A stretch of 58,716 nt of DNA from Silicimonas sp. (GTDB lineage Bacteria; Pseudomonadota; Alphaproteobacteria; Rhodobacterales; Rhodobacteraceae). Shown piece by piece: positions 22,402 to 45,160 of the stretch. The notes under the pieces were generated by a model. That model ran no database searches, had not been told where the DNA came from, and saw nothing but the letters and a program-made list of their open reading frames with translations. Position numbers and translations under genes: made by a program. The stretch lies in assembly GCA_022820365.1 (NCBI GenBank), contig JAJEFO010000060.1, positions 1-58,716 on the forward strand, read 5' to 3'. Position 1 is the first letter of the stretch. Every line of letters starts with the position of its first letter.

Positions 22402-23601
22402 TCAGTGCCAGAATTCCGGTGCCGGCGTGATGAGTTCGACGCCGTCTTCACTCACGATGTAGTTCTGTTCGAATCCTGCGGAGCCGACACCATCAAGGTT
22501 CAGGAACGCCTCCAGGCCGATGACGTCACCGGCATGCAGGTGTGCATCCATGTGGTCGACGATGTTGCTGACATATGGCGGGCCCTCGAAGTACAGGCCG
22601 TTCGGGTGTCCGTAGAACGGGTGCTTGCCGGCCATAGGGTCAACGTCCCCTCCGAACTCCTTCGAAAGCCTGTCACCGATGTCGGCAATTGACTTGTACG
22701 AGACGCCTGCGCGCGCGTTTCGGGCCATTGTTCCGACTATTTCGGCGCATGTTTCGATGAGACGCCGTTGGCTGCGGTCCGGCCTGCCTCCTGACACCGC
22801 GGTTCTTCCAGGATCCATGTAGTATCCCTGAAACATTGGCCCGATCAACCAGCCCTTCACCATGTCGCCCGGTTCTGGAGAGGCGGCGCTGTAACCGGAC
22901 AGTGGCTCCCTGCAGGTAAATTCGATCCTGTCGCCGAAAGTGCAGTCAATCCGCTCTACGACCCCTCCACGCTCGATGATCTCCACTGCGGCTGCTGCCG
23001 CGGCCTCACGCTCTGTCTTCCCGGCAACGAGTGCCGACATCAGCCTGTCGATTGCAACTGCCGCGATGTCACCGGCCTCCCTGCAGCAATCGAGTTCGCG
23101 CGGCGACTTCCTGCGACGCACTTCAAGAACGAGGTCGTCGCAAATCTCCCAGTCGATGGACGCTGTCTTTTTCTTGAACCCGTCCCAGTACTTGACAGCA
23201 AAGAAGTCGCTGCCGACGAATGCCACCTTGCCGCTAATCGGCCTTGCCTCGAGGCTCTGCGCCACTGCCGTCACGGTGTCCGGGCAGTACTGAATCCGGT
23301 CGGTCGGGATCTGGTCCCGGTGAAACCCCGGATCGTGCGCGAAGACTTCGGGCATCTCGCCAGGCCGGAAAACCACGGCGCAATAATCCCGCGCGCGGTG
23401 ACCCGACACGTCATAAGGCTGACCCACCTTGCTGGAAAAACAGTTCACGAGGTACAGGACGTCTCCCGCCCGGTCGAACGACGACGCGTTCTTGCCCCAG
23501 ACAACCGCTCCGGAATAGCCCCGAAGATCGATTTCGCGGTTCAGCCTGGTCCAGCGTTCCTCGTATTCCTCCAACGGGAAATAGCCATTCATCGTGATCA
23601 T
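22402..23601 (-). CDS. M24-family (creatinase/Xaa-Pro peptidase-like) hydrolase
   Basis: About 399 aa (MITMNGYFPLEEYEERW); an internal ATG at 23592 is an alternative start. The N-terminal creatinase-like domain is at about 10-165 and the pita-bread domain at about 170-399. Ligand-region motifs are GYYMDPGRT, FYGHPNGL, GLEAF and FEQNYIVSEDG. The first metal Asp, which should lie 11 residues before the Asp of YYMDPG, appears replaced by Leu (WLIGPMFQGYYMD). That points to a metal-free, creatinase-like C-N hydrolase rather than a peptidase. It faces operator copy A, divergent from the amino-acid ABC operon. Its substrate is unknown. Confidence 0.8.
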   Translation of the reverse strand: MITMNGYFPLEEYEERWTRLNREIDLRGYSGAVVWGKNASSFDRAGDVLYLVNCFSSKVGQPYDVSGHRARDYCAVVFRPGEMPEVFAHDPGFHRDQIPTDRIQYCPDTVTAVAQSLEARPISGKVAFVGSDFFAVKYWDGFKKKTASIDWEICDDLVLEVRRRKSPRELDCCREAGDIAAVAIDRLMSALVAGKTEREAAAAAAVEIIERGGVVERIDCTFGDRIEFTCREPLSGYSAASPEPGDMVKGWLIGPMFQGYYMDPGRTAVSGGRPDRSQRRLIETCAEIVGTMARNARAGVSYKSIADIGDRLSKEFGGDVDPMAGKHPFYGHPNGLYFEGPPYVSNIVDHMDAHLHAGDVIGLEAFLNLDGVGSAGFEQNYIVSEDGVELITPAPEFWH

Positions 23602-23646
23602 CCCAAGAAACGCAACCCGCGCGAGCCTGCATGATCGCAGGTTGCA

Positions 23647-23665
23647 AATATATCTAAAGTATATT
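23647..23665. promoter_or_regulatory. Regulon operator copy A
   Basis: AATATATCTAAAGTATATT, a 19-bp AT-rich near-palindrome in otherwise GC-rich DNA. It matches copies at 30149-30167, 34963-34981 and 39199-39217. It lies 46 bases from the M24 gene start and 81 bases from the ABC ATPase start, in the divergent promoter region. Confidence 0.75.
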
Positions 23666-23745
23666 ACGCTGCCGGTCACACCGTCAACCGAGTGCCGGTC
23701 CGGGTGCGACAGGCGGTCTCTCCGGACCGGCGGCTGGAACAAGCG

Positions 23746-24555
23746 ATGAATCCTGGTTCGCCAACTGAAGGGCCGCTGCTTCGAATCGAACAGCTGCACA
23801 AGTCATTCGGAGATCACGAAGTCCTGAAAGGAGTCTCCCTCTCCGTTGCAAAGGGAGAAGTGATCGCGATCGTCGGCGCGAGCGGGTCGGGAAAGAGCAC
23901 GCTGTTGCGCTGCGTGAACGTTCTCGAGATACCTACCAGCGGGCGCATGTATTTCGGTGGTCGCGAGATCGACTATCACCGTCTGACGCAGAGCCGGGCC
24001 GGGGCAAGGGAACTGGCGGAGCTGCGCGCATCTGTCGGAATGGTCTTCCAGAGCTACAACCTCTGGCCTCACAGAACCGTTCTGGAAAACGTGACCGAAG
24101 CGCCAATTCACGTGAAGGGCGTGCCCCGTGCCGACGCAATTGCCGAGGCGGAATCGCTTCTGGAGAGCATCGGCCTCTCGGACAAGCGCAACGAGTACCC
24201 GGCCCGGCTTTCCGGGGGTCAGCAGCAACGGGTCGCCATCGTCCGGGCACTGGCGATGAAGCCCGAAATCATGCTCTTCGACGAGGTGACTTCGGCACTC
24301 GATCCCGAACTCGTCGGTGAGGTTCTGGATCTCATGACCGTTCTGGCGAGCCAGGACATGACAATGCTTGTCGTGACCCACGAGATGGGATTCGCCAGGC
24401 ATGTCAGCCACCGCGTGATTTTCGTCCACGAAGGCGAGTTCGCTGAAGAAGCGCCGGCCCGAGATTTCTTCACGTCCCCGAATCATCCTGCAACCCGGCA
24501 GTTTCTCGGCAGGATTCTCCGCGATGATCAGGTCGAAAGACATGATGTGCACTGA
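23746..24555 (+). CDS. Polar amino-acid ABC transporter ATP-binding protein (GlnQ/HisP family)
   Basis: 269 aa from the ATG at 23746 (MNPGSPTEGPLLRIEQLHKS). An upstream in-frame start at 23692 would add 18 residues without family support. Motifs are Walker A GASGSGKST, Q-loop VFQSYNLWPH, signature LSGGQQQR and Walker B IMLFDEVTSALDPE, the last typical of GlnQ/HisP ATPases. It is the first gene of a three-gene importer operon; its stop overlaps the permease start (TGATG). Confidence 0.9.
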   Translation: MNPGSPTEGPLLRIEQLHKSFGDHEVLKGVSLSVAKGEVIAIVGASGSGKSTLLRCVNVLEIPTSGRMYFGGREIDYHRLTQSRAGARELAELRASVGMVFQSYNLWPHRTVLENVTEAPIHVKGVPRADAIAEAESLLESIGLSDKRNEYPARLSGGQQQRVAIVRALAMKPEIMLFDEVTSALDPELVGEVLDLMTVLASQDMTMLVVTHEMGFARHVSHRVIFVHEGEFAEEAPARDFFTSPNHPATRQFLGRILRDDQVERHDVH

Positions 24556-25220
24556 TGGACGGGATATTCGAATACCTCATGAGCTTCGCGGCGTATGTAC
24601 CCGGCTATGCCGGAGCGTTCGTGATCGCAATCGAGGTCGCCGCCGTCACGATCGTCATCAGCTGGATGTGCGGGCTGGTCGGCGTTCTCGCCAAGCTGTC
24701 CCGGTACCGTGTCCTGCGCTACCCGGCCGAATTCTACATCTGGTTCATTCGGGGAACGCCGCAACTTGTGCAGGTCTTCCTCGTCTATTTCGGGCTGCCG
24801 CAGGTGGGCCTGAATCTCGATCCGTTCGTCGCAGGAGCACTGGCCCTCGGGGTCGGGAGCGGTGCGTATGTGGCGGAGATATTCCGGTCCGGCCTCCTGG
24901 CGATACCAAAGGGACAGCCCGAATCCGCGCACGCGCTGGGCATGAACAACGCACTGACTTTCCGGCGGGTGATCTTTCCGCAGATGATCCGAATCGTCGT
25001 TCCCGCTCTCACCAACGAGGCCATCAACACCCTGAAGAACACGTCGCTTCTTTCGACGATCACGATCATGGAACTGACGCTCTATACGCAAGCCGTTATC
25101 GCGGCCACGTTTCGGCCTTTCGAGTTTTATGTAATCGTATCAGTTCTTTACCTTCTGATCACAACAGTACTGACACAGTTCGCAAAATGGTACGAGCGCC
25201 GCTACGCGCTCTACCTGTAA
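24555..25220 (+). CDS. Polar amino-acid ABC transporter permease
   Basis: A 221-aa inner-membrane protein with about five helices (first AFVIAIEVAAVTIVISWMCG, last YVIVSVLYLLITTVLTQF). It has the family hallmark WFIRGTPQLVQVFLVYFGLP and the EAA loop region SAHALGMNNALTFRRVIFPQ. It probably works as a homodimer since only one permease gene is present. It is translationally coupled to the ATPase gene. Confidence 0.9.
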   Translation: MDGIFEYLMSFAAYVPGYAGAFVIAIEVAAVTIVISWMCGLVGVLAKLSRYRVLRYPAEFYIWFIRGTPQLVQVFLVYFGLPQVGLNLDPFVAGALALGVGSGAYVAEIFRSGLLAIPKGQPESAHALGMNNALTFRRVIFPQMIRIVVPALTNEAINTLKNTSLLSTITIMELTLYTQAVIAATFRPFEFYVIVSVLYLLITTVLTQFAKWYERRYALYL

Positions 25221-25245: not shown

Positions 25246-26055
25246 ATGATTACCAGACGAAACCTGCTGATCGGCACAGCCTCCGGCATGGCGGCACCGA
25301 TGATCCTTCCTTCGGCCTCATGGGCCGACGATGCCCTTGAACTCAACACGCCAGGCGTGCTGACGGCTGCCGCAGAAGGAACCTTTCCGCCGTACAGTTT
25401 CCTCAACGATAGAGGCGAGTATGACGGGATCGGTCGCAATACGATGGCGGAGATCGCCAGCCGGCTGGGCCTCGAATACAATCCCGTCATCACCAAGTGG
25501 GAGTCGCTTCTCGTTGGCATCCTGGCCAACAAGTTCGACATTGCGGCCTCGGCGATGGGGATCAACGCCGAGCGTCAGGAGCAGGTCTATTTCTGCGATG
25601 GCTGGGTGGAATCCGGTTCGCGGCTCTTCGTCAGGGAAGACTCGCCTTACACGAGCTCGGCCGATCTCGAGGGGAAGAGGGTCGGCGCGATCGTGGCGTC
25701 GATCTTCATTCCGGTCGCGGAGCGCATCGTCGGGCCCGACGGCGAGGTGCCCGTCTTCCAGGCTGACGTCGAGGGAATGCAGGATGTGGCGAACAGGAAC
25801 ATCGACGGCGTCATACTTGACTCCATCTCCGCTGCATACCTGATCACGAAGGCCAGCCTGCCGCTGCGCGGTATGCCGAACATCGAACAGTCCTATCAGC
25901 TGGGATGGCCGGTCAACAAGAGCAAGCCGAATCTGGTCAGGGCCGTCAACGAAAAGCACTGGGAAATGGTTGAAGACGGCAGCTTTGCCGCGATCTGCGA
26001 ACCTCTCATCGGATTTGACCCGACGCCGGCAGACCCGATTCGCAGTCTTCTCTAG
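25246..26055 (+). CDS. Family-3 amino-acid-type solute-binding protein, probable Tat substrate
   Basis: A 269-aa periplasmic protein. The signal MITRRNLLIGTASGMAAPMI has a twin-arginine start, hinting at Tat export, and a likely SWA cleavage site. The mature chain follows the family-3 pattern: LTAAAEGTFPPYSFLNDRGE, then GIGRNTMAEIASRLGLEY, ASAMGINAERQEQVYFCDGW and a C-terminal MVEDGSFAAICEPLIG. The family binds amino acids and related zwitterions, supporting a nitrogenous substrate for this regulon. A terminator-like hairpin follows. Confidence 0.9.
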   Translation: MITRRNLLIGTASGMAAPMILPSASWADDALELNTPGVLTAAAEGTFPPYSFLNDRGEYDGIGRNTMAEIASRLGLEYNPVITKWESLLVGILANKFDIAASAMGINAERQEQVYFCDGWVESGSRLFVREDSPYTSSADLEGKRVGAIVASIFIPVAERIVGPDGEVPVFQADVEGMQDVANRNIDGVILDSISAAYLITKASLPLRGMPNIEQSYQLGWPVNKSKPNLVRAVNEKHWEMVEDGSFAAICEPLIGFDPTPADPIRSLL

Positions 26056-26366: not shown

Positions 26367-27140
26367 TCAGGGTGATCCGTTCCGATCCGACAATCCGCGG
26401 AAATCAAGGTTCGAATTGCAGTCCTCCGTGATTATCCTGGCCAGGCGAGTGCGGAAGAATATCGCATGATCCGTCAGGACCTCGGTCAGCGTTTCGCGGT
26501 CTTCGCGCCGGATCGCGTCCACGATGCGCTCGTGGTCCTGCCGCGGTTTCTCGAACAGCTTCGACACGTACCCGTCCCGCGCAGCCTCCAGCTTGAATAT
26601 GAAATACGACAGCCGCCGAGCCACATTGTGCAGCTTGTCCGAATACGCACGTATGAAAGAATTCCGGGTGGCGGCAGCAATCCTGGCATGAAACCGCGCA
26701 TTCAGCTCGGTGACCCGAAGTAGATCGGGCCGCCCGAGGCTTGTCACATATTCCTCGTGCAGGCGCTCCACGTCTTCAATGAGGTTCGGGTCGCCGAATT
26801 TCAGTGCAGCGGCGACCATCCGCTCGCTCATGACGTATGCCTCGAACAGTTCTGCAGTGGACTCGATGTTCAGAGGCGCCACCTGCACCCCGCGCGGTTC
26901 CCGCGCGACCACGAGCCCCTCCACGATCAGGCGGTTCAGGGCCTCGCGCATCGGTGTCCGGCCAATCTCGAACCGCTCGAGCATCTGGCGTTCGTCCAGG
27001 GTCGTTCCGGGGGCCAAAGTCAGGTCGAGTATGTGGTTCCGAACGGTCCGTGTCGCCTGATCTGTCATCGACAGGTTTTCCGTCAATGAGCGCGAAGGCA
27101 CCGAACCCTTGGTCTTCTTCCTTTGCCGAGTATTCGTCAT
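26367..27140 (-). CDS. GntR-family transcriptional regulator, FCD type; probable regulon regulator
   Basis: A 257-aa protein. The winged helix-turn-helix includes TLDERQMLERFEIGRTPMRE then ALNRLIVEGLVVAREPRGVQ. The all-helical FCD domain follows (about 100-240), with metal-ligand-type residues around ELNARFHARIAAATRN, QDHERIVDAI and LTDHAIFFRTRL. The start at 27140 has GGAG six bases upstream; an internal ATG at 27068 is possible. FCD regulators usually repress catabolic operons until they bind an organic acid effector. It is the only regulator inside the 22.4-45.2 kb block, so it is the best candidate to bind the four-copy palindrome. No copy was seen before its own gene. Confidence 0.9.
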   Translation of the reverse strand: MTNTRQRKKTKGSVPSRSLTENLSMTDQATRTVRNHILDLTLAPGTTLDERQMLERFEIGRTPMREALNRLIVEGLVVAREPRGVQVAPLNIESTAELFEAYVMSERMVAAALKFGDPNLIEDVERLHEEYVTSLGRPDLLRVTELNARFHARIAAATRNSFIRAYSDKLHNVARRLSYFIFKLEAARDGYVSKLFEKPRQDHERIVDAIRREDRETLTEVLTDHAIFFRTRLARIITEDCNSNLDFRGLSDRNGSP

Positions 27141-27560: not shown

Positions 27561-29771
27561 TCAAACGGGCGTCACGGTTGAATCATGCTGGGAACACGTT
27601 TGCGGCTCCGAAAATCTGGCATGACCGCCAGCGGCCGGTTCCGGAAATGGCGCTGGATCAAGAAAGCGCCTGAGCACGTTCCGGGTGACCCGACTGACCG
27701 AATTTTCGCCCTTGTTCCACAGGAGTGACGTTGCCCAGGCGATTGATCCGGCAGACCAGACCGCCCCACCCTTCGGCGTCGCGAAGAAGACCATGTCGCA
27801 CCGGACCCGCCCGTTCTGCACACCATCGAGTGCGCGGGTAGTGGTGATGTACTCTTCGCCCGACAGCAGGCCCCCAAGCCCCACGTGTTCCGATGTCGCA
27901 AGAATGACCGATCCCAGCGGCGAGCCCAAATCAGCGTCCCACCGGTCGATCTCCAGTCCCACCGCACCGCCGCCGCGATAGCCGAAGTCGCCGATGATGT
28001 CCGAGTTGAGGCCTTCGAAAATGAATGACAGATCCGGATCGCGACTGTCTTCCGAACGGCGGAAGTAGGTTGAACGCACGAAGAGCGTCGAACTGAAACC
28101 GGTACCCGCCAGCACCTGCGGTGCCCGGCCATGAGTCCGCCAAAGCCCGCCCGGTTCGCCGGTAAAGCTCAGGTGATGTTCGCCCGGCTCACCTTCCCAC
28201 GTACGTACGCCGCTGATGCCGCGACGGTTCTCGATTACGCCTGGATGGTCGTCAGACCAGGCTATCCGCCAGTAAAACCCGTTGCCGCCCAGATACATGT
28301 GGCGACCACCGTCCAACTGGTATCCATAGAGCGCGTCCCACATCTCGGTCGAAAAATACTCGGGATGCGACGCCGTCATCACGACGCGATAAGGGTTGAG
28401 CAATGCACGTCCGTAGCGGTGCAAGTCCTCGTCCGTAGCCACGTCATGGCTGACGCCCTGGTCTTCGAGCCATTTCACGATGTGTGTGTCGTTAAGATAG
28501 TTGAACGTGTAAAGTCCGGGCCGCGTGTTCAGCATCGGGCGGCGTTCGCTGGCATAGACAACGCCGGATTCGTCCGCATGTGTGTCATATTGCGACAACC
28601 CCAATTCGCGGTGTTCGTTCAGGTACAGCTCGTCCTCGCTCAGCACCATCGGCGCTTCGTAGAGATTCTCGGTATTGTGGCTGTCGAACTTGATGTGGGT
28701 ATTGGCGTAGGAGAGATAGGTCGCGGTCGGTGCCAGCAACAAGACATCCGCCTTCGGCTTGCCCGGCCGCGCAGAGACGAAGAACGGCACGTCGCTTTGC
28801 ACGTCCTCGGCTGTCATCCGCGCTATGTAGAATCCGGACTGCGCATCCGCTGGCGGGGTGATCTGCAGGGTCGTTTGCCAACCGCAGTCGGTCATGTCGT
28901 CGTCGTGAAAATGGATCGCGGCATATTGCGACGGATCTCGCACCCAGCTTTCGACTGACCCGTTCCAGTTCGACCCGGCAGCACCCCGCATCGGGGTGTT
29001 GACCAGTGTCAGGTGGCAGCCATCCGGACCAGCGTCGAAGGCGCGCGTGCCCGATTGCTCGCGGCTGAAGTCCCACTGGGCCAGGAGGCGGCCGTCCACG
29101 CGGATCGATGGGACCTCGATCTTGCCATTGTAGGCGTCCGCGACGAATGGCACATCGCCCTGCCATCGGTCCAGCATGGCGGCGAAGAAGATCGGGTCCT
29201 CTGCTTTCGGCAACGCCGTCGCTCCGCGCGGCGCATGCGCGCGGGAAGGGTCTGTCCACACGGCACAGGGAGCGACCGGTGCCACGACAAGCGAAAGGCC
29301 ATCGGCGGCAACGTCCAGTTCGGCCTGGAACCATCGACGTTTCACAAGCGGTCGTTCCAGGGTGGCGGCCATTTCGCCGAGACGGACCTGCAGCCGCCCG
29401 TCCGATGCCAGTTCGAAGCGCAACGCCCCCCAATGCAGGATGCACTGTCGTTTGCCTCGGGTCATGGTCGGCCAGACATTCATCGAGATGCGAAGCGTAC
29501 CGGCCCCGGCCGTATCCGGCCCTGCAGCGGCAAAGGCGAACGAGCCAGCGTTCACCGGCTGATGCCGCACGTGCAGACCCGACGCACCGCCCCAGTCCAT
29601 TTTCTCGAATTCGGCACCCGGTCCGTCGGGATCGATGTCTCCGCAGACGATGCGATGGACCGCGACCGAACAGGTCTCCGGCCCATTGCTGGAAACCTTC
29701 AGCGCGGTCGTCGCGTCGCCATGGATTTTCAATGGCTGGCAATAGCCGATCAGCCCTGTCGTGCTTGTCAT
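27561..29771 (-). CDS. N,N-dimethylformamidase-like large (beta) subunit
   Basis: A 736-aa protein starting MTSTTGLIGYCQPLKIHGDA. The ATG at 29771 overlaps the stop of the small-subunit gene (ATGA), so a longer frame is rejected. The N-terminal region has HRIVCGDIDPDGPG, typical of the DMFase large subunit. A lectin-like sandwich follows, then the catalytic domain with CGWQTTLQITPPADAQSGFY, LLLAPTATYLSYANTH, LEDQGVSHDVATDEDLH and GGRHMYLGGNGFYWRIAW. Known DMFases are iron-dependent amidohydrolases cleaving N,N-dimethylformamide to dimethylamine and formate. The pairing with a small subunit supports a true alpha/beta amidase, but the real substrate may be another amide. Confidence 0.8.
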   Translation of the reverse strand: MTSTTGLIGYCQPLKIHGDATTALKVSSNGPETCSVAVHRIVCGDIDPDGPGAEFEKMDWGGASGLHVRHQPVNAGSFAFAAAGPDTAGAGTLRISMNVWPTMTRGKRQCILHWGALRFELASDGRLQVRLGEMAATLERPLVKRRWFQAELDVAADGLSLVVAPVAPCAVWTDPSRAHAPRGATALPKAEDPIFFAAMLDRWQGDVPFVADAYNGKIEVPSIRVDGRLLAQWDFSREQSGTRAFDAGPDGCHLTLVNTPMRGAAGSNWNGSVESWVRDPSQYAAIHFHDDDMTDCGWQTTLQITPPADAQSGFYIARMTAEDVQSDVPFFVSARPGKPKADVLLLAPTATYLSYANTHIKFDSHNTENLYEAPMVLSEDELYLNEHRELGLSQYDTHADESGVVYASERRPMLNTRPGLYTFNYLNDTHIVKWLEDQGVSHDVATDEDLHRYGRALLNPYRVVMTASHPEYFSTEMWDALYGYQLDGGRHMYLGGNGFYWRIAWSDDHPGVIENRRGISGVRTWEGEPGEHHLSFTGEPGGLWRTHGRAPQVLAGTGFSSTLFVRSTYFRRSEDSRDPDLSFIFEGLNSDIIGDFGYRGGGAVGLEIDRWDADLGSPLGSVILATSEHVGLGGLLSGEEYITTTRALDGVQNGRVRCDMVFFATPKGGAVWSAGSIAWATSLLWNKGENSVSRVTRNVLRRFLDPAPFPEPAAGGHARFSEPQTCSQHDSTVTPV

Positions 29772-30106
29772 GGGTCTGGCACGTCCAGTTCGCGGCCGGT
29801 CAACTCTTGCCACCGGCGCTTGAAGATGTCCCATTCCGCCTCGGCGATGGAGGCATAGGTCACGCCATCCACCATTTCGGGCGGAACACCGCGTTCGCCC
29901 GACAGCCGTGCAAGCGCGAACTTGCGAAACGGTTCGACCACGACAAGCGCAAACCGTCCCTTCATCGGGGTCGAACGCATCTTGTCGAGCACGCGCTGCA
30001 GTTCAAGACTGTACGGCCCGCGCAGCTGGTCGCGGTATTCAAGCGCCAGATCCGTCCGCGTGCCGTCGATTTCGTATGTGGCGTTGTCCGGGTCGTAAGG
30101 AAGCAT
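29768..30106 (-). CDS. N,N-dimethylformamidase-like small (alpha) subunit
   Basis: A 112-aa protein (MLPYDPDNATYEIDGTRTDL), similar in size to DMFase alpha subunits (about 130 aa), with VVEPFRKFALARLSGERG and a basic/aromatic C-terminus EAEWDIFKRRWQEL. It is recognised mainly by its position immediately before and overlapping the large-subunit gene. It is transcribed from the divergent promoter carrying operator copy B, 43 bases upstream. Confidence 0.7.
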   Translation of the reverse strand: MLPYDPDNATYEIDGTRTDLALEYRDQLRGPYSLELQRVLDKMRSTPMKGRFALVVVEPFRKFALARLSGERGVPPEMVDGVTYASIAEAEWDIFKRRWQELTGRELDVPDP

Positions 30107-30148: not shown

Positions 30149-30167
30149 AATATATTTTCAATATATC
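30149..30167. promoter_or_regulatory. Regulon operator copy B
   Basis: AATATATTTTCAATATATC, the same 19-bp palindrome class as at 23647, 34963 and 39199. It lies between the divergent DMFase-like operon and the aminotransferase gene. It ends 18 bases before the aminotransferase start codon, a position suited to repression. Confidence 0.75.
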
Positions 30168-34962: not shown

Positions 34963-34981
34963 GATATATTTTAGATATATT
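34963..34981. promoter_or_regulatory. Regulon operator copy C
   Basis: GATATATTTTAGATATATT; its complement AATATATCTAAAATATATC is the consensus of the four copies. It sits 22 bases upstream of the DAO-family gene start, in the leader or core promoter. Confidence 0.75.
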
Positions 34982-36601: not shown

Positions 36602-37132
36602 CTACTCCAGCCCCAGCTCGGCGGCCTTCTTCGATGAAAGATCAGCCTCGCGCATCAGGACTTTCAAAAGGTAGGACAGAAACTGCAGCAGCAGGATTCC
36701 CAGCCCGATCGAGACAAAGCTCTCGGGCAGCCAGAGCGGCACCTGCGCTACGGTTTCGGAGACGTAGCCCCGTTCATAGTTGCGCAAGACGTTCCGAGTG
36801 AAGAACCAGAATGCCATGCCGCAGCTGAAGATGCCGAAGCAGATGCAGACGATTTCCAGGAACCAGCGTACACGCCCCTTGCTGCTGAGCGAGGCCAGGA
36901 GCAGGTTCATGCGGATCAGCGTTCCCTTTTCCAGCGATTGACCAAGAGCCAGAAAGCTCATCGCACCAATGCCGTAGCCCACGAGTTCGTCCGCCATGTG
37001 CGTTGATGCGGAGAAAAAGGTCCTCATCACCACTTCAGTCAGGATCAGGCCGGTCATCATCAGCAAGATCAGCACGGCGACCAGCATCCCCACGCGGTTG
37101 ATGAAAGTTGACAGGCGGTGAACCCAGGTCAT
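36602..37132 (-). CDS. dctQ: TRAP transporter small permease (DctQ family)
   Basis: A 176-aa protein with four helices, the first VGMLVAVLILLMMTGLILTE. It has the DctQ-type segment EVVMRTFFSASTHMADELVG and a last helix region SFVSIGLGILLLQFLSYLL. It forms the membrane complex with DctM. It is separated from the binding-protein gene by 78 bases holding an attenuator-like hairpin. Confidence 0.88.
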   Translation of the reverse strand: MTWVHRLSTFINRVGMLVAVLILLMMTGLILTEVVMRTFFSASTHMADELVGYGIGAMSFLALGQSLEKGTLIRMNLLLASLSSKGRVRWFLEIVCICFGIFSCGMAFWFFTRNVLRNYERGYVSETVAQVPLWLPESFVSIGLGILLLQFLSYLLKVLMREADLSSKKAAELGLE

Positions 37133-37210: not shown

Positions 37211-38224
37211 CTAGTTGGCAACCATTTCCAGCTGCTTTTGGTATGCCGCAAGGATTTCGTCCGCGAGCTCTTCACCGATCTGCGCGCGCCATTCATCAAT
37301 GGCAACCTGGGCTGCGGTCTTGAGTTCGTCGACGAAGCTTTCGGGCACGTCGCGGATTGCCTTGACATTGGCGTCCTTGAGACGCTGCACGTTCAAGTCG
37401 ATCCGGGCCTGGGAAGCTGCCCAAAGTTCGTCTTCGACTTCCTTCGCCGTATCCAGCACGATTTGCTGAAGGTCCCCGGGAAGTCCGTCGAACACGTCCT
37501 TGTTCATGTGCACCATGTTCGAGCCCATCGTGAAGTTGAGGTAGTGGTAGTGGTCCAGATATTCTTCGAACTTCGCCGAAAGGCCGCCCTCTTCCGACGT
37601 AAGCACTGCCTCGATGGCATTGGTTGACAGCGCAGGCACCACGTCAGCCCAGCTCATCTGGATCGCCGCGGCACCTAGCTCCTTGAGCGTCACTGTGCCG
37701 TTCTTGTCATAGGTGCGGACCTTCATGCCCTTCATGTCCGCGGCCGACGCGACCGGGCGCTTCGTCCAAAGGCCGACAGGCGTCCAGGGTTCTGCCAAGA
37801 GAAGAATCTGGTTCCCCTTTGCAAATGCCTCGGCATAGTACGGGCGCGCTGCATCGATCAATGCCTTGGATTGCTGCGGGTTCGTAGCCATGAACGGCAG
37901 GTTGTTCATCAGGAACACCGGATCAAATCCGGTAAACACCCCCGTGTAGGTCGAGGCGATCTGGACGGCCTGGTCCTCAACCGCGGCCCAGTGATCCTTG
38001 GACTTGTAGCCAAGGGATCCACCGAAGTGATTGGTGATCTGAATGCGGCCGTCACTGTTTTTTGAAAGACGCGCGGCGAAGATCTTGTCCGCTTCACCCG
38101 AAATGGACGATTCGCCGTATTCGTTCGGCATGTCCCATGCCACTTCCTGAGCTTGTGCTGGCACACCAAGCGCCAGGCTCATGGATGCGAAAGTCGCATA
38201 GAGCATCTTTTTCGGCATTTTCAT
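37211..38224 (-). CDS. dctP: TRAP transporter substrate-binding protein (DctP family)
   Basis: A 337-aa periplasmic protein. The Sec signal is MKMPKKMLYATFASMSLALG followed by VPAQAQ with cleavage after AQA. The DctP pattern is clear: GGSLGYKSKDHWAAVEDQAV, PFMATNPQQSKALIDAARPY, AAADMKGMKVRTYDKNG with the Arg that normally holds the substrate carboxylate, then LKELGAAAIQMSWADVVPAL and the helix-rich C-terminus. The substrate is probably an organic acid or zwitterion. It follows the alpha/beta hydrolase gene by 47 bases. Confidence 0.92.
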   Translation of the reverse strand: MKMPKKMLYATFASMSLALGVPAQAQEVAWDMPNEYGESSISGEADKIFAARLSKNSDGRIQITNHFGGSLGYKSKDHWAAVEDQAVQIASTYTGVFTGFDPVFLMNNLPFMATNPQQSKALIDAARPYYAEAFAKGNQILLLAEPWTPVGLWTKRPVASAADMKGMKVRTYDKNGTVTLKELGAAAIQMSWADVVPALSTNAIEAVLTSEEGGLSAKFEEYLDHYHYLNFTMGSNMVHMNKDVFDGLPGDLQQIVLDTAKEVEDELWAASQARIDLNVQRLKDANVKAIRDVPESFVDELKTAAQVAIDEWRAQIGEELADEILAAYQKQLEMVAN

Positions 38225-38271: not shown

Positions 38272-39129
38272 TCAGAGTCCCATTTGGGAAAACAGCGCTG
38301 CCGTGAGCGGGCTCAAACGATTGCGGTATTCCCCCACCACGTTCACATGGTCGTGGTTGCCGACTTCAAGGTAGCTTGCCTCGAACCCGGCATCCCGGCA
38401 TGCGTCCGTGTAAATCCGCGACTGACGGCGGAATTCGCTGGTTTCGCCACCACCGACAGCAATCACCGTCGGGGGCATCCATTTCGGCAAGTGGTGGATC
38501 GGGCTGTTCCGGCGCGACGTCTCGCCGTCCATCTTCAGATCGGCATTGAGATAGGAAAGCCGCAGCGGTTCCAGATCGAACAGACCGCTGAGCGGCACGG
38601 CGCCGTTCACCACGTCGAAGGGCAGCCCGTACGCCTCCCAACTGGTCGCCAGGAGAATGCCGGTCAGATGACCGCCCGCCGAATGGCCGGTGACGTGGAT
38701 GCGTCCGGGGTCGCCCCCGATCCTGGCGGCGTTGTCATAGATCCACTTCAATGCCTGACGGTTCTGCTCGGCAATCGCGTCCATCGTGACGTTCGGGCAA
38801 AGATCATAGTTGTTCAGAACGACCGCTGCCCCAGCCTCGACAAACCGTTCGGCGACAAACCGGAACATGTCCTTGTCGAAGGCCCTCCAGTAACCGCCGT
38901 GAATGAACAGGAGAGTGGGCGACCCGCCGCGCCCGGGCCAGACGTCAAGCCTTTCGAGATCGGTCTTGCCGAAGGGGACATCGAGCTGGCATTCGAATTT
39001 CGAGACCGCACGCTCGTTGTGTGGCGCCATCGACTCGAAGGTCTCCGCGAAATGCGGGCAGCGCACGCGCATGTCGTATTCGTAGTCCAGTTCTTCCTGC
39101 GTGAACTCGCCGTAGACCTTCTCCGCCAT
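38272..39129 (-). CDS. Alpha/beta hydrolase (kynurenine formamidase-like)
   Basis: 285 aa from the ATG at 39129 (MAEKVYGEFTQEELDYEYDM), the usual N-terminus of this family. An in-frame ATG at 39189 would add 20 residues, starts only 10 bases from operator copy D and lacks a ribosome-binding site. The oxyanion motif is FIHGGYWRAFDK and the nucleophile elbow is VTGHSAGGH; the C-terminal His lies in VGNHDHVNVV. HGGYW proteins of this type hydrolyse aryl formamides or esters. It heads the operon with the TRAP genes, so it may act on the imported compound or its product. Confidence 0.8.
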   Translation of the reverse strand: MAEKVYGEFTQEELDYEYDMRVRCPHFAETFESMAPHNERAVSKFECQLDVPFGKTDLERLDVWPGRGGSPTLLFIHGGYWRAFDKDMFRFVAERFVEAGAAVVLNNYDLCPNVTMDAIAEQNRQALKWIYDNAARIGGDPGRIHVTGHSAGGHLTGILLATSWEAYGLPFDVVNGAVPLSGLFDLEPLRLSYLNADLKMDGETSRRNSPIHHLPKWMPPTVIAVGGGETSEFRRQSRIYTDACRDAGFEASYLEVGNHDHVNVVGEYRNRLSPLTAALFSQMGL

Positions 39130-39198: not shown

Positions 39199-39217
39199 AA
39201 TATATCTTTAATATATC
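39199..39217. promoter_or_regulatory. Regulon operator copy D
   Basis: AATATATCTTTAATATATC, the fourth copy of the 19-bp palindrome. It lies between the divergent hydrolase/TRAP operon and the ABM, DinB, monooxygenase, hydantoinase operon, 33 bases before the first start of the latter. Confidence 0.75.
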
Positions 39218-39249: not shown

Positions 39250-39558
39250 GTGCACGTCAGAATGTCGTATTGGAAGTGCAAGCCCGAGTTTTGGGGCAAG
39301 GACGCGGAGCTGTTCGAATCGGGCGCGGTGCCGATCATGCAGACGCACGCAGGCTTCGTTCGCGCGATGCTTCTGGCCAAGCCAGAGGACCCTCAGCGTG
39401 TCGCGCTTACGGTCTGGGCGGATCGCGAGGGTTACGATGCCTTCGTTGACAGCCCGGACCTGCAGCACATCATCGACATGTTCGAGCACATGTACTTGCC
39501 GGGCGGCAATCCAGACCCGGTGGAATACGACGTGCGCGCCCAGGGTGGCGGAGCATAG
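39250..39558 (+). CDS. Small dimeric alpha/beta-barrel (ABM-like) protein
   Basis: 102 aa from the GTG at 39250, chosen because GGAAGGAG lies 9 bases upstream; an ATG 12 bases later is too far from it. The pattern MSYWKCKPEFWGKDAELFES, HAGFVRAMLLA, VALTVWADREGYDAFVDSPD resembles antibiotic-biosynthesis-monooxygenase (ABM) domain proteins. It may be a cofactor-free monooxygenase or a small stabilising partner. It is the first gene of the plus-strand operon under operator D. Function is inferred only at fold level. Confidence 0.7.
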   Translation: MHVRMSYWKCKPEFWGKDAELFESGAVPIMQTHAGFVRAMLLAKPEDPQRVALTVWADREGYDAFVDSPDLQHIIDMFEHMYLPGGNPDPVEYDVRAQGGGA

Positions 39559-39624: not shown

Positions 39625-40155
39625 ATGGCAGAGCTATTGGACGTCGAAACGGCTGCGCGTTACAACGCCTGGGCAAACATTCGCATCTACAACGCGCTTC
39701 GCAAGCTTTCGGACCAGGAACGCAAGCAAGACCGCAAGGCCTTTTTCCGGTCGATTCACAACACGATGAATCACGTTTTGCTTGCGGACCTGATCTATCG
39801 CGAGCGGCTGGAAAGGAAGCCCACCACCTACACGACCCTGGACGAAGTCCTCCATGACGACTTTGACGCGCTTGTGGCGGCACATCGCGCCAACGACGTC
39901 TGGTACTCCGATTTCTGCGCGCGAATGACCCAGGACGAACTCGACGCCAACCTGACCTTCACGGCGGTCGGCATGGATCAGGAAGAGATTTTCTCGCTGC
40001 CCAAGAAGCTGTGCCTGACCAATCTCTTCCAGCACCAGATCCATCACCGCGGCCAGGTGCACCAGATGATCAGCGAAACCGGGCACTATCCGCCGCCGGT
40101 CGACGTTGTGAAATTCGGTCGCGGCGACACCGATCAGTGGAGCGACACGGCGTGA
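39625..40155 (+). CDS. dinB: DinB-family putative metal-dependent protein
   Basis: A 176-aa four-helix bundle of the DinB/YfiT-like type: YNAWANIRIYNALRKLS, then FFRSIHNTMNHVLLADLIYR with metal-ligand His, then LFQHQIHHRGQVHQMISETG with the C-terminal ligands. The family includes thiol-dependent S-transferases and metal-dependent hydrolases; here it probably serves the pathway rather than DNA damage. Its TGA overlaps the GTG of the monooxygenase gene. Confidence 0.82.
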   Translation: MAELLDVETAARYNAWANIRIYNALRKLSDQERKQDRKAFFRSIHNTMNHVLLADLIYRERLERKPTTYTTLDEVLHDDFDALVAAHRANDVWYSDFCARMTQDELDANLTFTAVGMDQEEIFSLPKKLCLTNLFQHQIHHRGQVHQMISETGHYPPPVDVVKFGRGDTDQWSDTA

Positions 40156-41450
40156 GCGAGCGGGAAGAAGACGTCCTGATTGTAGGCGCGGGACAGGGCG
40201 GTCTTTCTGCAAGCTTCCATCTGACGCAGGCAGGGGTGCCTCACCGCGTCGTGGACCGCGGCGGCGTGGGTCACGCCTGGGAATGCCACAGGTGGGACAG
40301 CTTTTGTCTGGTGACACCGAACTGGACAGTGAACCTGCCTGGCCGCCCCTATGAAGGAGACGACCCGGATGGCTTCATGCATCGCGACGAATTCGTCGCC
40401 TACCTGAAGGACTGGGCAGCCTCGTTCAACGCGCCCGTGACCAGCGGGGTGGAGGTCCGGAGGATCGAAAGGGACGGCGAGGGATTTCACGTCGCGACGG
40501 ACCGGGGCGGCATCCGCGCGCGCGCAGTCATCGTCGCCACCGCAACCTACCAGTACCCGAAGCTTCCTGCCGTATCCAAGTCGCTTCCGGGCGACATCCG
40601 CCAGCTTCATGCCGAAGACTACAAGAACCCGGATCAGGCCGCCAATGGCGCGGTCATGATCGTCGGCTCGGGCCAAACAGGTTGCCAGATCACCGAAGAT
40701 TTCCTGCGCGCCGGCCGCGAGACGCTTCTATGCGTCTCCCGCACCGGCCGCTTGCCGCGCATCTATCGCGGCAAGGACGTGCTGCATTGGCAAGAGGTGA
40801 TGGGACTTCTCGACCGCACGCCCGACATGCTGGACGATCCGAGCCAGCGCTTTGTCGGCGATCCGCATCTGACAGGCCGCGACGGCGGCGGCCTGGTCAG
40901 CCTTTACCGCTTTGCCGAGCGCGGCGTGCGCCTGTTGGGCCGGTTCATTGACGTCAGGGGACGAACGCTGAAATTCAAGGACGATCTGCATGAAAACCTG
41001 GAATGGGCCGACAGGTTCTGCGACGACCTTGTCGCGCGGACCGACGGGTTCATCGAGAACAACGGCATCGATGCCCCGCAAGGCAGCGAAGATCTTGGGC
41101 ACATGAACCCGGACCAGCAGCTTCCGGTGTCGCCCCTGACGCTGGACCTGGATCAGGCCGGCATCGGCACGGTGATCTGGGCCACCGGATTTGCCTACGA
41201 CTTCTCCTGGATCGACGGCGTGCCGGTAGACGATCTGGGCTATCCGACAACCGAAGGTGCTGCGAGTCCGCTTGATGGATTGTTCTTTTGCGGACTGAAT
41301 TGGATGACCAAGCGCAAGTCGGGGATCCTCTACGGAGTGGACGAAGACGCGCAACTTGTCGCGGACCAGGTTCAGGCCTTCCTGAAGCAATCCTCTGCGG
41401 TCTGCGTGTCTAGGCGGGGAAAGGGGATCACCGAATGTTCATCGGCGTAG
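40152..41450 (+). CDS. FAD/NAD(P)-dependent monooxygenase-like flavoprotein
   Basis: 432 aa from the GTG at 40152 (SEREEDVLIVGAGQGGLSAS), which overlaps the DinB stop (GTGA); a longer upstream frame is rejected. The FAD motif GAGQGG is at 12-17, the class-B-monooxygenase-like region is RVVDRGGVGHAWECHRWDSF, and the NADPH Rossmann motif is VMIVGSGQTGCQI. GTVIWATGFAYDFSWI near the end is the ATG motif of this family. It could N- or C-hydroxylate an intermediate. Its end overlaps the hydantoinase A start by 16 bases. Confidence 0.85.
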   Translation: MSEREEDVLIVGAGQGGLSASFHLTQAGVPHRVVDRGGVGHAWECHRWDSFCLVTPNWTVNLPGRPYEGDDPDGFMHRDEFVAYLKDWAASFNAPVTSGVEVRRIERDGEGFHVATDRGGIRARAVIVATATYQYPKLPAVSKSLPGDIRQLHAEDYKNPDQAANGAVMIVGSGQTGCQITEDFLRAGRETLLCVSRTGRLPRIYRGKDVLHWQEVMGLLDRTPDMLDDPSQRFVGDPHLTGRDGGGLVSLYRFAERGVRLLGRFIDVRGRTLKFKDDLHENLEWADRFCDDLVARTDGFIENNGIDAPQGSEDLGHMNPDQQLPVSPLTLDLDQAGIGTVIWATGFAYDFSWIDGVPVDDLGYPTTEGAASPLDGLFFCGLNWMTKRKSGILYGVDEDAQLVADQVQAFLKQSSAVCVSRRGKGITECSSA

Positions 41451-43477
41451 ACGTGGGCGGAACTTTCACCGACATCGCGGTCAATCGCGATGACGGTGAA
41501 ACCCTCTTGCTGCACAAGCTGCCATCCACTCCGGACGCACCGGAACGCGCGATCGTCGACGGGCTGTCCGCCATTCTGGGACAGCACAGCTTGTCGGGCG
41601 ACGGGGTCATGCGCCTGGCCCATGGCACGACGGTAGGGACAAACGCCCTGATCCAGCGCAAGCACGGCAAGGTGGCGCTGATCACGTCGGCGGGCTTCCG
41701 TGACCTTCTGGAAATTGGGCGCCAAACGCGCCCGTCGGTTTACGACATGCATTCCGACCACCCGGCCCCGCTGGTCGAACGCCGGCTCAGGATCGACGTG
41801 CCGCAGCGCACGCTTGCCGACGGAAGCACTCACGTTCCGCTTGACGAAAGCGCTGTCCTTGCGGCCGCAGCGCGGCTGGGCGAAGAAAACGTGGACTGCG
41901 TGGTCGTTTGCTTCCTCCATTCCTACGCCTTCCCCGAAGACGAGCAGCGTGCGGCGGCGCTGCTGCGAAAGGCACTTCCAATGAACGTCTCGGTGCTTTG
42001 TTCGTCGGATGTCTACCCGGAGTTCCGCGAGTACGAACGGTTTTCCACGACGGTCCTGAATGCAGCCCTGATCACGATCATCGGATCCTATCTCGACCGT
42101 TTGACGCAATCGGTCGCTGACCTTGGCATCGGATCCGAAGTCAAGATAAGTCAGAGCGCCGGCGGGCTGATGTCGATCCGGATGGCCAGGGAATTTCCGG
42201 TGCGTGCCTCGCTGTCCGGCCCTGCCGCAGGCGTGCAGGGCGCGCAGCGACGGGCCCTGGCGGCCGGGTTCGAGAACATCATCACGCTCGATGTCGGAGG
42301 CACTTCGGCCGATGTCGCCCTCCTGAAGGACGGCAACGCGATCGAGGTGAACGAACGCGATCTTGCAGGATTCCCGGTCCGCATCCCGGCGCTGGACGTG
42401 AACGCGGTGGGTGCCGGCGGCGGCTCCATTGCCTGGATTGACCGCGACGACCTCCTGAAAGTCGGACCGCAAAGCGCCGGCGCCGTACCTGGACCGCTTT
42501 GCTATGACCTGGGCGGCGCCGAAGTTACCGTGACGGATGCGAATGTCATGCTGGGCCGTCTCAACAGCGAGTCCCTGCTTGCCGGACGCATGCCCATCAA
42601 GTCGGAACTTGCCGTGCTGGGCATCACCGCGCTGGCGGAAAGGCTCGGCGTCGCCGCTGACGAGGCCGCGCTTGGCATCCTGCGTGTGGCTGCTGCGACC
42701 ATGGTGAAGGCCATCCGGTCAATCTCGGTCGAACGCGGGCATCACCCGGGCGACTTCTCGCTGTTCGTCTATGGCGGTGCAGGCGCGCTTTTCGCAACCG
42801 AGGTCGCGCGAGATCTTGGCATCCCGCAAATCGTTGTTCCACCCGATCCGGGCATTCTTTGTGCCGAAGGCGCGCTCAACGCCTCGCTGTCCACCGATTT
42901 CGTCGTGACTACGCTTTCAGGGCTCAACAAGGCAGGTATCGCCAAACTCCGCGATGCCGCCGCAGAATTAGACGCACGTTCAACGGAGTGGTTCGCGTCA
43001 GAAGACGTTCCCAGCCACCTCCAACGCAGGGCGTGGACGGTTGGCGCACGCAATTTCGGTCAGAATTACGAACTCACGCTCGAACTGGATCTGGCCAAGG
43101 ACGACGATGCCCTGATCGCCGACCTCACAGGAACGTTCCTCGTGGCGCACGAATTCACTTATGGATTTGCCTCGGAAAGCGAAGCGGTTCAGATCGTGAA
43201 CGTGGCCGTCAAGGCCATTGGCGAATTGAAAAAGCCTGAACTTCCGATGGCACCGGAGATCGCCCCCGCAACGCCCGACGGACACCGCATGACGCTGTTC
43301 GAAGGCACCGAACGGATCGAAACGCCCCTGTTCAGCCGCAGTGATCTGCCCAAGGGGCAGGTCATCGAAGGCCCCGCCATCGTCGAACAGATGGACACGA
43401 CGGTTCTTGTCTTTCCCGGCGACAGGGCCACAACGGACCCTTGGGGCAACCTTGTCATCGACGTGAAGGGCCACTGA
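41435..43477 (+). CDS. hyuA: Hydantoinase/oxoprolinase subunit A (HyuA)
   Basis: A 680-aa ATP-binding subunit of the acetone-carboxylase / N-methylhydantoinase / 5-oxoprolinase family. The ASKHA nucleotide-binding N-terminus is MFIGVDVGGTFTDIAVNRDD. Other blocks are LAHGTTVGTNALIQRK, FLHSYAFPEDEQRA, SAGGLMSIRMAREFP, TLDVGGTSADVALLKDG and DVNAVGAGGGSIAWIDRDD. With HyuB it hydrolyses cyclic amides such as hydantoins, N-methylhydantoin or 5-oxoproline at the cost of ATP. Length is normal. It belongs to the operon under operator D. Confidence 0.92.
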   Translation: MFIGVDVGGTFTDIAVNRDDGETLLLHKLPSTPDAPERAIVDGLSAILGQHSLSGDGVMRLAHGTTVGTNALIQRKHGKVALITSAGFRDLLEIGRQTRPSVYDMHSDHPAPLVERRLRIDVPQRTLADGSTHVPLDESAVLAAAARLGEENVDCVVVCFLHSYAFPEDEQRAAALLRKALPMNVSVLCSSDVYPEFREYERFSTTVLNAALITIIGSYLDRLTQSVADLGIGSEVKISQSAGGLMSIRMAREFPVRASLSGPAAGVQGAQRRALAAGFENIITLDVGGTSADVALLKDGNAIEVNERDLAGFPVRIPALDVNAVGAGGGSIAWIDRDDLLKVGPQSAGAVPGPLCYDLGGAEVTVTDANVMLGRLNSESLLAGRMPIKSELAVLGITALAERLGVAADEAALGILRVAAATMVKAIRSISVERGHHPGDFSLFVYGGAGALFATEVARDLGIPQIVVPPDPGILCAEGALNASLSTDFVVTTLSGLNKAGIAKLRDAAAELDARSTEWFASEDVPSHLQRRAWTVGARNFGQNYELTLELDLAKDDDALIADLTGTFLVAHEFTYGFASESEAVQIVNVAVKAIGELKKPELPMAPEIAPATPDGHRMTLFEGTERIETPLFSRSDLPKGQVIEGPAIVEQMDTTVLVFPGDRATTDPWGNLVIDVKGH

Positions 43478-43480
43478 GCC

Positions 43481-45160
43481 ATGGCGATTTCTCCGATTGA
43501 AGCCGAGATCCTACGGAACGCAATGGCCAGCGTTGCAGACGAGATGTACATCGCGCTGATGAAGGCCTCCTATTCGACCAACATCAAGGAGCGAAAGGAT
43601 CATTCCACTGCGCTTTTCGATCCCGACGGGCGGGTCGTCGTTCAGGGAGAAAGCATGCCGCTGCACCTTGCGTCGATGCTGGGACTGGTCGAGGTCGTGC
43701 TGGAAAAATTCGGCAAGGACGGCATGAAGCCCGGCGACATGTACATGTCGAACGACCCCTATGTCGGGCGCGGATCGCATCTGCCGGACGTGGCCATCGC
43801 AACGCCGATCTTTCACGAAGGGCGGCTGATCATGTTTGCCTGCAACATCGCCCACCATGCCGACATCGGGGGAATGTCACCGGGCTCGATGGCGGGAGGA
43901 ATGACCGAGATTTACCAGGAAGGTCTGCGTATCCCACCGATCCGGCTGATGGAAGACGGCAAGGTCGTTCAGGACGTGATGGACCTGGTGCTTCTGAACG
44001 TCCGCGTGCCCGAGGAAAGACTGGGCGACTACAACGCGCAGATCGCGTCGAACCAACTGGGAGTCCGCCGCGCAATGCCGCTTATCAAGCGTTGGGGGCC
44101 GGATCGGGTGATTGAGGGCTGCGACGCCATCATCGCCGCCGTTGCCCGCCGGACCCGTGCAGCGATCCGCGACCTGCCTGACGGCGTCTACGAATTCGAA
44201 GACCTGATCGACGATGATGGTCTTTCGCGCGAGAACATTCGCATCAAGGTTGCGATCACCGTATCGGGCGATGAAATCGAGTTCGATTTCCACGGCACCG
44301 AAAAACAGGTTGAAGGAAACAACAACGTCACCAAGGCCGGTCTTCAGGCGGCATGCCTGTACTGCATGAAGGTGCTACTGGATCCCGATTGTCCTCAGAA
44401 CCACGGGATGCTCGACCCGGTGACAATCAAGGCCGAGGAAGGCACGATCGTGAATGCAGCCTTCCCGGCAGCGTCCGCGGCGCGAGCGCAAACGGCACAG
44501 CGGATCGTCGACGTGATCTTTGGCGCACTGGCGCCTGCCTATCCCGAACGCATCATCGGCGCATCGAACGGCGCGAACACCTCGGCAGCCTTCTTCGGGC
44601 GCGACGAAAACGGTCGGTACTATGTCTATCTTGAAACGTTGGGAGGAGGCGCGGGCGCACGCGCCTACAAGGACGGAACCGACGGGGTCCAGATTCACAT
44701 GACCAACACCTCGAACCTGCCGATCGAGGCACTTGAGACCGAGTATCCGCTGATGATCGAGCGTTACGAGCTGGTCGAGGATTCGGGTGGTGCAGGCGAG
44801 TACCGCGGTGGCCTCGGACTTCGTCGCGACTACCGTCCGCTTGGCCACGAGACGACGTTCTCGGGCCAGGGCGAGCGTTTCGTCAATCCGCCATGGGGCA
44901 TTTTCGGCGGCGCTCCTGGAGGGACGGGACGTTTCGCGGTGCTCCATGATGACGGCAGGGAAACCAGGCTTGCCAACAAGCCCTCTACTTTGCGCGTCGG
45001 TCCAAGCGGCGTCATTAGTGTCATCACGGCAGGTGCCGGAGGATATGGCGACCCGAAAAGGAGATCGCGGGACGCCTTGGAAGAGGATCTGGAAAGCGGA
45101 AAGTTTTCGCTAGGATTCATTGATGACCATTACGGGAAAGCACGCAAGAAGGCGGACTGA
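43481..45160 (+). CDS. hyuB: Hydantoinase/oxoprolinase subunit B (HyuB)
   Basis: A 559-aa catalytic partner of HyuA, starting 3 bases after its stop. Family blocks are EAEILRNAMASVADEMYIAL, SYSTNIKERKDHSTALFDPD, DMYMSNDPYVGRGSHLPDVA with metal-site residues, NIAHHADIGGMSPGSM, and the C-terminal LETEYPLMIERYELVEDSGG with GGLGLRRDYRP. Together they form an ATP-dependent cyclic-amide hydrolase. It is the last recognisable gene of the regulon block. No palindrome copy or clear terminator was found after it. Confidence 0.92.
   Translation: MAISPIEAEILRNAMASVADEMYIALMKASYSTNIKERKDHSTALFDPDGRVVVQGESMPLHLASMLGLVEVVLEKFGKDGMKPGDMYMSNDPYVGRGSHLPDVAIATPIFHEGRLIMFACNIAHHADIGGMSPGSMAGGMTEIYQEGLRIPPIRLMEDGKVVQDVMDLVLLNVRVPEERLGDYNAQIASNQLGVRRAMPLIKRWGPDRVIEGCDAIIAAVARRTRAAIRDLPDGVYEFEDLIDDDGLSRENIRIKVAITVSGDEIEFDFHGTEKQVEGNNNVTKAGLQAACLYCMKVLLDPDCPQNHGMLDPVTIKAEEGTIVNAAFPAASAARAQTAQRIVDVIFGALAPAYPERIIGASNGANTSAAFFGRDENGRYYVYLETLGGGAGARAYKDGTDGVQIHMTNTSNLPIEALETEYPLMIERYELVEDSGGAGEYRGGLGLRRDYRPLGHETTFSGQGERFVNPPWGIFGGAPGGTGRFAVLHDDGRETRLANKPSTLRVGPSGVISVITAGAGGYGDPKRRSRDALEEDLESGKFSLGFIDDHYGKARKKAD

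Follow-up and report, generated by a model that had tools for sequence, protein, structure and literature searches.

A recurrent palindrome marks a conserved catabolic regulon in Silicimonas with an atypical presumed operator and a probably replaced GntR regulator

Introduction

What could place several separate, partly divergent sets of catabolic genes under one control? The question is raised by contig JAJEFO010000060.1 of Silicimonas sp. (GenBank assembly GCA_022820365.1), whose 58,716 nt are here called the window. It contains a 19-bp palindrome with the core ATATAY-N5-RTATAT in four near-identical copies, at 23647, 30149, 34963 (complement strand) and 39199, the positions at which an initial annotation, made from the sequence alone, had located them. 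That annotation took the surrounding genes for one catabolic regulon and proposed the GntR-type protein encoded at 26367-27140 as its regulator. We examined the distribution of the palindrome and of this protein in the window's own genome (G000 in all genome counts) and in other genomes. We conclude that the regulon is real and conserved, that its presumed operator is atypical and that its regulator has probably been replaced. The comparisons make it quite probable that the four palindromes are the operators of one catabolic regulon and that they are bound by the FCD-type GntR protein of 26367-27140.

Results

All four palindromes lie 5' of start codons and three of them sit between divergent units, an arrangement that the initial annotation had described and that start codons re-set from the sequence bear out. 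Measured to these codons, the distance from the 17-bp core is 55 nt for the M24 gene, 81 nt for the ATPase gene of the ATP-binding cassette (ABC) importer, 43 nt for a small open reading frame (ORF), 19 nt for the aminotransferase gene, 23 nt for the DAO gene, 33 nt for the ABM gene and 70 nt for the alpha/beta hydrolase gene, or 10 nt if the longer start of the hydrolase is used. The sites face seven transcription units with 19 genes: M24; the ABC importer; the small ORF with a gene resembling the large subunit of N,N-dimethylformamidase (DMFase); the aminotransferase; DAO with D-2-hydroxyacid dehydrogenase (2HADH) and MmgE; the hydrolase with a tripartite ATP-independent periplasmic (TRAP) transporter; and ABM-DinB-FMO-HyuA-HyuB, where FMO denotes a flavin monooxygenase-like protein. 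These figures correct the initial count of about 18 genes in six operons.

We searched the window with the degenerate 19-mer, allowing up to three mismatches. The eight strand-matches obtained were the same four places, each found on both strands, and 100 dinucleotide-preserving shuffles gave no match. Across the whole genome (4,713,777 bases in 135 contigs), AATATATNNNNNRTATATY occurred four times, always in the cluster, and its reversed control yielded 0 copies. When the core was relaxed to ATATAYNNNNNRTATAT with one mismatch allowed, three scattered places were added genome-wide; since the reversed control produced five, such matches outside the cluster are background. The genome scan that the initial annotation had proposed therefore did not find the motif scattered, all four exact copies being in the cluster. 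A further AT palindrome, TGTATATACTGCGTAGTATATACA, was seen at window position 54598, outside the regulon.

The scan of relatives, proposed along with it, found the palindrome at orthologous promoters in six related genomes. The total over seven genomes is 22 sites, 19 of them perfect and three with one mismatch. The gap between the hydrolase and ABM genes holds a perfect core in all seven known carriers (G000 and six others). The site between the small ORF and the aminotransferase gene has orthologues in G007, G001, G377 and G047, and one with a mismatch in G200; the DAO promoter site has them in G007, G001 and G377, and with one mismatch in G047; and the site between M24 and the ABC importer has them in G377 (C73:15638) and G047 (L036:10111, one mismatch). 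Two of the seven same-genus genomes (G001 and G007) carry three sites each, at the hydrolase/ABM, DAO and aminotransferase/DMFase-like promoters, and no motif site was found in the other five. A GntR search of those five at E<=1e-15 gave nothing in four and a 26% match in G006. Among relatives of G047, two of 147 genomes were carriers, both already known.

When the perfect ATATAYNNNNNRTATAT places of G000, G001, G007, G377 and G047 were taken genome-wide, 16 of 17 were orthologues of the four promoters of the window. Orthologous sites from different genera share 21-40% identity in their 60-nt flanks and 83-97% in their arms, figures that leave out the rows of G001 and G007, which are near-copies, and the site described below before an aldehyde ferredoxin oxidoreductase (AFOR) gene; as the arms were selected by match, the informative point is where the sites sit, not the identity of the arms. 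For the same reason the site matrix, which we built on 21 of the 22 sites (without the M24/ABC site of G377), is inflated.

Several features of these genomes were recorded in passing. In G074, where no GntR relative was found, the exact motif at C24:93160-93178 (L041:8162) lies near an ArsR-type gene and may reflect chance or another regulator. DMFase-like paralogues, about 48% identical, occur at G007:C4, G377:C96 and G003:C121; their contigs gave no core match with up to one mismatch in G007 and G377, and none in G003, which was searched with the exact 19-mer only. Two short M24-like matches adjoin the DMFase-like gene of G001 (L032:18661-19404) and are perhaps a decayed M24 gene. In G377, DctM and DAO are separated by about 7.8 kb (L034:11786-18986) that encode a large TPR protein and an AbiEi-type regulator; this stretch is not found between these genes in the window, G001 or G007.

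The regulon proved to be split in G047. A pattern search of this genome returned three perfect places, of which contig C2 has one, in the hydrolase/ABM gap, and contig C5 the other two. Five enzymes of the window have orthologues on C5, namely the DMFase-like protein (69%), the aminotransferase (65%), MmgE (57%), 2HADH (66%) and DAO (78%), and so has the small ORF. One perfect C5 site lies in the small-ORF/aminotransferase gap. The other, at L055:8083, is the 17th perfect place and precedes an AFOR gene (L055:5816-8053, minus strand) that adjoins the DMFase-like operon and has no counterpart in the window's regulon; AFOR is a possible extra regulon member in G047. Places with one mismatch were found at the DAO promoter and in the M24/ABC gap. 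The DMFase-like, aminotransferase and DAO genes of this genome, at first missing, were located through motif matches alone. The GntR gene is on C2, and as the nearest C2 and C5 sites are at least 55 kb apart (contigs of 220,025 and 168,442), the protein would act in trans. In G377, the only perfect place off the main contig (C73:15638) has M24 (76%) on one side and the ABC importer (85, 92 and 91%) on the other. Contig C73 stops about 115 bp beyond the importer genes. Since the GntR and hyuB genes come immediately after the importer in G047, C73 and C52 of G377 may adjoin.

By its domains, the protein at 26367-27140 is a member of the FadR (FCD) subfamily of GntR regulators, with a winged helix-turn-helix (HTH; PF00392) at residues 27-87 (52.2 bits, cut-off 27) and a C-terminal FCD domain (PF07729) at 105-225 (53.5 bits, cut-off 24.3). 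Proteins of this subfamily bind DNA and, as ligand, a small acid. Pfam matches were obtained for 24 of the 26 window proteins scanned, and the GntR protein is the only transcription factor among these 24. Relatives at E<=1e-30 were present in five of 394 same-family genomes (G000, G021, G047, G200 and G377). We compared the two distributions in 90 same-family genomes, namely the window's own, seven of the same genus and 82 others. The exact motif occurred in 5/5 genomes with the GntR protein at this threshold and in 2/85 without it (Fisher p = 4.8e-7, a value that kinship among the genomes makes only a guide). This co-occurrence supports the initial choice of the protein as shared regulator.

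What the initial annotation had missed is that this protein probably stands in for another. Each of the six other carriers has its GntR gene 3' of hyuB in the same direction, where it would itself stand under the control of the motif. At this place the window holds a remnant (Table 1), in which 56 of 83 residues are identical to the N-terminal part of the GntR protein of G007 (tblastn, E 6e-32). Its first bases overlap the end of hyuB, and nothing is recognisable past the N-terminal part. An ORF 3' of the remnant, at 45396-46220, has a weak match to IS240-type DDE proteins, under the Pfam cut-off. In phylogenetic trees, the intact GntR protein groups with that of G377 (support 100/99) and HyuB groups with those of G001 and G007 (100/99); in the GntR tree the branches of G021 and G200 are long, and a contig end truncates the G200 protein, so that only the pairing of G000 with G377 was used. 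The tblastn identities agree, with 70% to G377 vs 47-50% to G001 and G007 for GntR, and 76% vs 96-98% for HyuB. The M24 and ABC importer proteins of the window are likewise close to those of G377 (76-92%), and the gene order M24-ABC-GntR is the same as in G047. On these comparisons, the original hyuB-linked GntR gene decayed in the window and the intact copy is a xenologue. The M24-ABC-GntR block would have been acquired, and its regulator may have taken over from the decayed copy. A search of plasmids for relatives of the protein returned 48 records, all below 60% identity, with 30-35% among the 20 matches listed.

Comparison of the seven regulators shows higher conservation in the HTH, which contains an invariant RTPxREAxNRL stretch, than in the FCD domain. 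Over 19 regulator pairs, with G001-G007 and G000-G377 left out, identity is 0.52-0.66 in the HTH vs 0.38-0.48 in FCD. This is weak evidence, as an HTH better conserved than the FCD domain is the rule in the family at large.

The sites were also compared with predicted promoters. At six of the seven ABM-side promoters, TTGCAA stands exactly 17 nt before the TATATY of the right arm, and G021 has TAGCAA; in the window, TTGCAA-17-TATATC overlaps the palindrome at 39199. The frequency of TTGCAA in the window is 0.0003. When 18 kb were scored for sigma-70-like promoters, two of the three best matches overlapped sites. Under a strict rule, a −35/−10 pair overlapping a site was found for 12 of 37 gene directions, vs a mean of 5.35 with shuffled flanks; the count of 12 was reached in 1 of 300 shuffles. 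By this rule, a −35-like hexamer lies 16-18 nt before the left-arm TATATT at the aminotransferase promoter in 5/6 genomes and at the M24 promoter in 2/3. Just 3/7 pass in the ABM direction, because the rule excludes TATATC. The position of the sites over predicted −10 elements makes promoter occlusion by a repressor the most likely mode of action.

The features of the locus are collected in Table 1. The 112-aa ORF was present in five of seven loci searched, those with an orthologous DMFase-like gene, which it overlaps by 4 nt. It has no Pfam match, and a PDB search gave weak, unrelated matches only. Relatives of the alpha/beta hydrolase align from residue 1 to 21 onward, which bears on the choice of its start. 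The FMO-like protein matches the MSMEG_0569 flavoprotein family TIGR04046 with 406 bits, under the cut-off of 498.35. A search for DinB in the class found it in 11 of 385 genomes, the window's own included. For two of the ten others, G592 and G761, stretches of 6.2 and 18 kb were examined; both carry a DinB-FMO pair, but neither the motif nor any match to HyuAB or GntR. The neighbours of the pair in G592 (TctA/TctC, FMO-like, hydrolase and UPRTase genes) gave no substrate clue.

Table 1. Features of the palindrome-associated locus (positions in the window).
Feature	Position	Strand	Basis or remark
M24 family hydrolase/peptidase	22402..23592	-	Pfam PF00557; start = ATG
Operator-like palindrome	23647..23665	+	M24 / ABC importer divergent promoter
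ABC importer ATPase, amino-acid type	23746..24555	+	Pfam
ABC importer permease	24555..25220	+	Pfam
ABC importer solute-binding protein, family 3	25246..26055	+	Pfam
GntR/FCD regulator, intact, xenologue of original	26367..27140	-	Pfam GntR + FCD; phylogenetic profile; tree
DMFase large-subunit-like amidohydrolase	27561..29771	-	Pfam DMFA2_C; PDB N-acetyl-(R)-beta-phenylalanine acylase + DMFase; start re-set
112-aa ORF, position of a DMFase small subunit	29768..30106	-	5/7 loci searched
Operator-like palindrome	30149..30167	+	79-nt gap, small ORF-DMFase-like / aminotransferase divergent promoter
Class I/II aminotransferase, aspartate type	30186..31382	+	Family matches
MmgE/PrpD family, IDS-epimerase / aconitate decarboxylase relatives	31394..32716	-	Family matches
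D-2-hydroxyacid dehydrogenase family (2HADH)	32713..33639	-	Family match
DAO-type FAD amine/amino-acid oxidase	33639..34940	-	Family matches
Operator-like palindrome	34963..34981	-	Promoter of DAO-2HADH-MmgE operon
TRAP transporter DctM	35290..36597	-	Family match
TRAP transporter DctQ	36602..37132	-	Family match
TRAP transporter DctP	37211..38224	-	Family match
Alpha/beta hydrolase, esterase / kynurenine-formamidase relatives	38272..39129	-	Start may be 39189
Operator-like palindrome	39199..39217	+	Hydrolase-TRAP / ABM-DinB-FMO-HyuAB divergent promoter
ABM-domain protein	39250..39558	+	Family match; start re-set downstream of site
DinB family protein	39625..40155	+	Family match
Flavin monooxygenase-like protein, related to TIGR04046 but below cut-off	40164..41450	+	Start approximate
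HyuA, hydantoinase/oxoprolinase/caprolactamase alpha family	41435..43477	+	Family matches
HyuB	43481..45160	+	Family matches
Remnant of original hyuB-linked GntR gene, N-terminal part only	45127..45375	+	tblastn with G007 orthologue

Discussion

We propose that the sites are repressor-type operators, which most likely work by promoter occlusion as judged from their position. A GntR dimer would occupy ATATAY-N5-RTATAT, covering the −10 element at several of the promoters, and would block RNA polymerase until an intermediate of the pathway binds the FCD domain. Release by an effector through this domain is suggested because the family works in this way (PMC4494728). The importers of the TRAP and amino-acid ABC types would be coupled to enzymes acting on an amide- or lactam-type amino compound, among them HyuAB for ring opening, the DMFase-like amidase, the aminotransferase and the DAO oxidase. 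In the window, the hyuB-linked copy of the regulator has decayed and the xenologue beside the M24/ABC block would have taken over its role. A more general reading, which we advance tentatively and regard as somewhat doubtful, is that these proteins form a clade of FCD-GntR repressors with a new class of operator, whose AT arms (ATATAY) lie 5 nt apart and double as −10 elements, and whose recognition is so strict that a distant copy could step in for the decayed regulator native to a multi-operon pathway for an amide- or lactam-type compound.

Several observations weigh against GntR repression at these sites, and we consider them with the alternatives that they touch. We counted the 17-nt spacing only after having noticed it, and one genus accounts for three of the six cases. 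By the strict rule, no overlap was found in the ABC (0/3) and small-ORF (0/6) directions, and few in the DAO (1/5) and hydrolase (1/7) directions. The GntR protein might then bind the sites as an activator or a dual regulator instead of a simple repressor, given that the sign of regulation is not readable from sequence and that a clear −35/−10 overlap is missing in the ABC and small-ORF directions and at most DAO and hydrolase promoters. We consider this unlikely, since at the ABM, aminotransferase and M24 promoters the sites overlap −10-like elements, a position that suits repression.

A second group of observations concerns the identity of the binding protein. The exact motif occurs in two same-family genomes without the GntR protein (G061 and G074) and in 6 of 57 genomes of other families, in which GntR was not searched for. 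With 14 perfect core places in its AT-rich genome, G200 has sites that are hardly informative. Of the two perfect places in G021, one lies outside the cluster, and the DMFase-like homologue (48%) of G021 has no site; the cluster contig of this genome stops about 1 kb past the hydrolase gene. The G377 importer block is a right prediction by the motif and not proof of separate loci. Moreover, no site with up to three mismatches was found in 27101-27600, which leaves the GntR gene of the window siteless for about 460 bp upstream. It could be argued that another, unlinked transcription factor binds the palindrome, the linked GntR protein regulating something else or binding another site. Such a factor would fit the motif without GntR in those genomes, the lack of a site before the window's GntR gene, a motif unlike the usual FCD operator with its GT...AC boxes, and a motif that stays constant across FCD domains of only 38-48% identity in most pairs. 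We find it quite improbable, in view of the co-occurrence of motif and GntR protein, the place of the GntR gene after hyuB, in what would be a motif-controlled operon, in all six other carriers and the lack of any other regulator among the window proteins scanned.

Two further explanations fare worse than binding by the linked GntR protein. It is very improbable that the palindrome is merely a conserved −10 feature of promoters in GC-rich DNA and no operator: the arms do supply TATATT or TATATC as −10 hexamers, but a general promoter element would be widespread, the two-armed palindrome with its fixed 5-nt spacer occurs in G000 at these promoters only, and the −10 element falls in different arms at different promoters. 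A chance cluster, or the recent duplication of one promoter segment, to which the near-identity of the sites might point, is extremely improbable and already contradicted by the empty shuffles, by the same promoters carrying the palindrome in other genomes and by sites that persist between genera amid diverged flanks.

That the genes form one pathway is suggested by their co-regulation and co-occurrence. Our best guess for this pathway, and one we somewhat favour, is that it takes up and hydrolyses an amide- or lactam-type amino compound. A creatinine or hydantoin pathway was also considered, given M24, HyuAB and DAO, and no gene that was found decides the matter. HyuA and HyuB have their best NCBIfam matches in CapA and CapB of caprolactamase, at 513.2 and 299.3 bits, far below the equivalog cut-offs of 1000 each.

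If these assignments are right, the locus offers a directly testable regulon for an uncharacterised alphaproteobacterial catabolic route, with one regulator, four operators and seven units. The motif is usable as a gene finder, having led to the distant enzyme block of G047 with its added AFOR gene and to the importer block of G377 on another contig. A decayed old regulator beside a foreign copy presumed to work would be a natural test of the strictness of operator recognition. Judged by title and abstract opening, no paper on this cluster or motif was found in the open-access library searched, and the papers searched there do not describe the pathway.

Parts of the locus resemble characterised systems. 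Compared with the caprolactam pathway of Pseudomonas jessenii (CapAB), which reportedly has an aminotransferase step, the window adds oxidase, MmgE/PrpD and DMFase-like genes. The DMFase-like protein is homologous over most of its length to the large subunit of N,N-dimethylformamidase (E 2.4e-105 to 6lvb; PMC7686228) and to N-acetyl-(R)-beta-phenylalanine acylase (PDB 8huy); a small ORF precedes its gene, at the place and with the size of a DMFase small subunit, but has no sequence match to that subunit.

The closest regulatory parallels are the FadR/FCD regulons. According to PMC4494728, on which the statements on known regulators in this paragraph draw, the consensus operator of this subfamily has TKGT/ACMA boxes with GT and AC 3 or 2 nt apart, and NanR and BioR are exceptions. 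If bound by this GntR protein, the palindrome would be an operator outside that consensus: its 21-site matrix lacks the GT...AC core, which counts among the points against our interpretation. A further difference is that in the window genome the regulator gene was moved and swapped. BioR, also of the GntR family, has a site (TTATMKATAA) that is likewise an AT-rich palindrome without the usual GT/AC boxes, but it is shorter, has no 5-nt spacer and serves biotin genes. The system is like the regulons of LldR, PdhR, ExuR, UxuR and GlcC, which combine a GntR winged HTH with an FCD domain and have a palindromic site in promoter regions, with single sites in divergons, that controls catabolic and transport genes.

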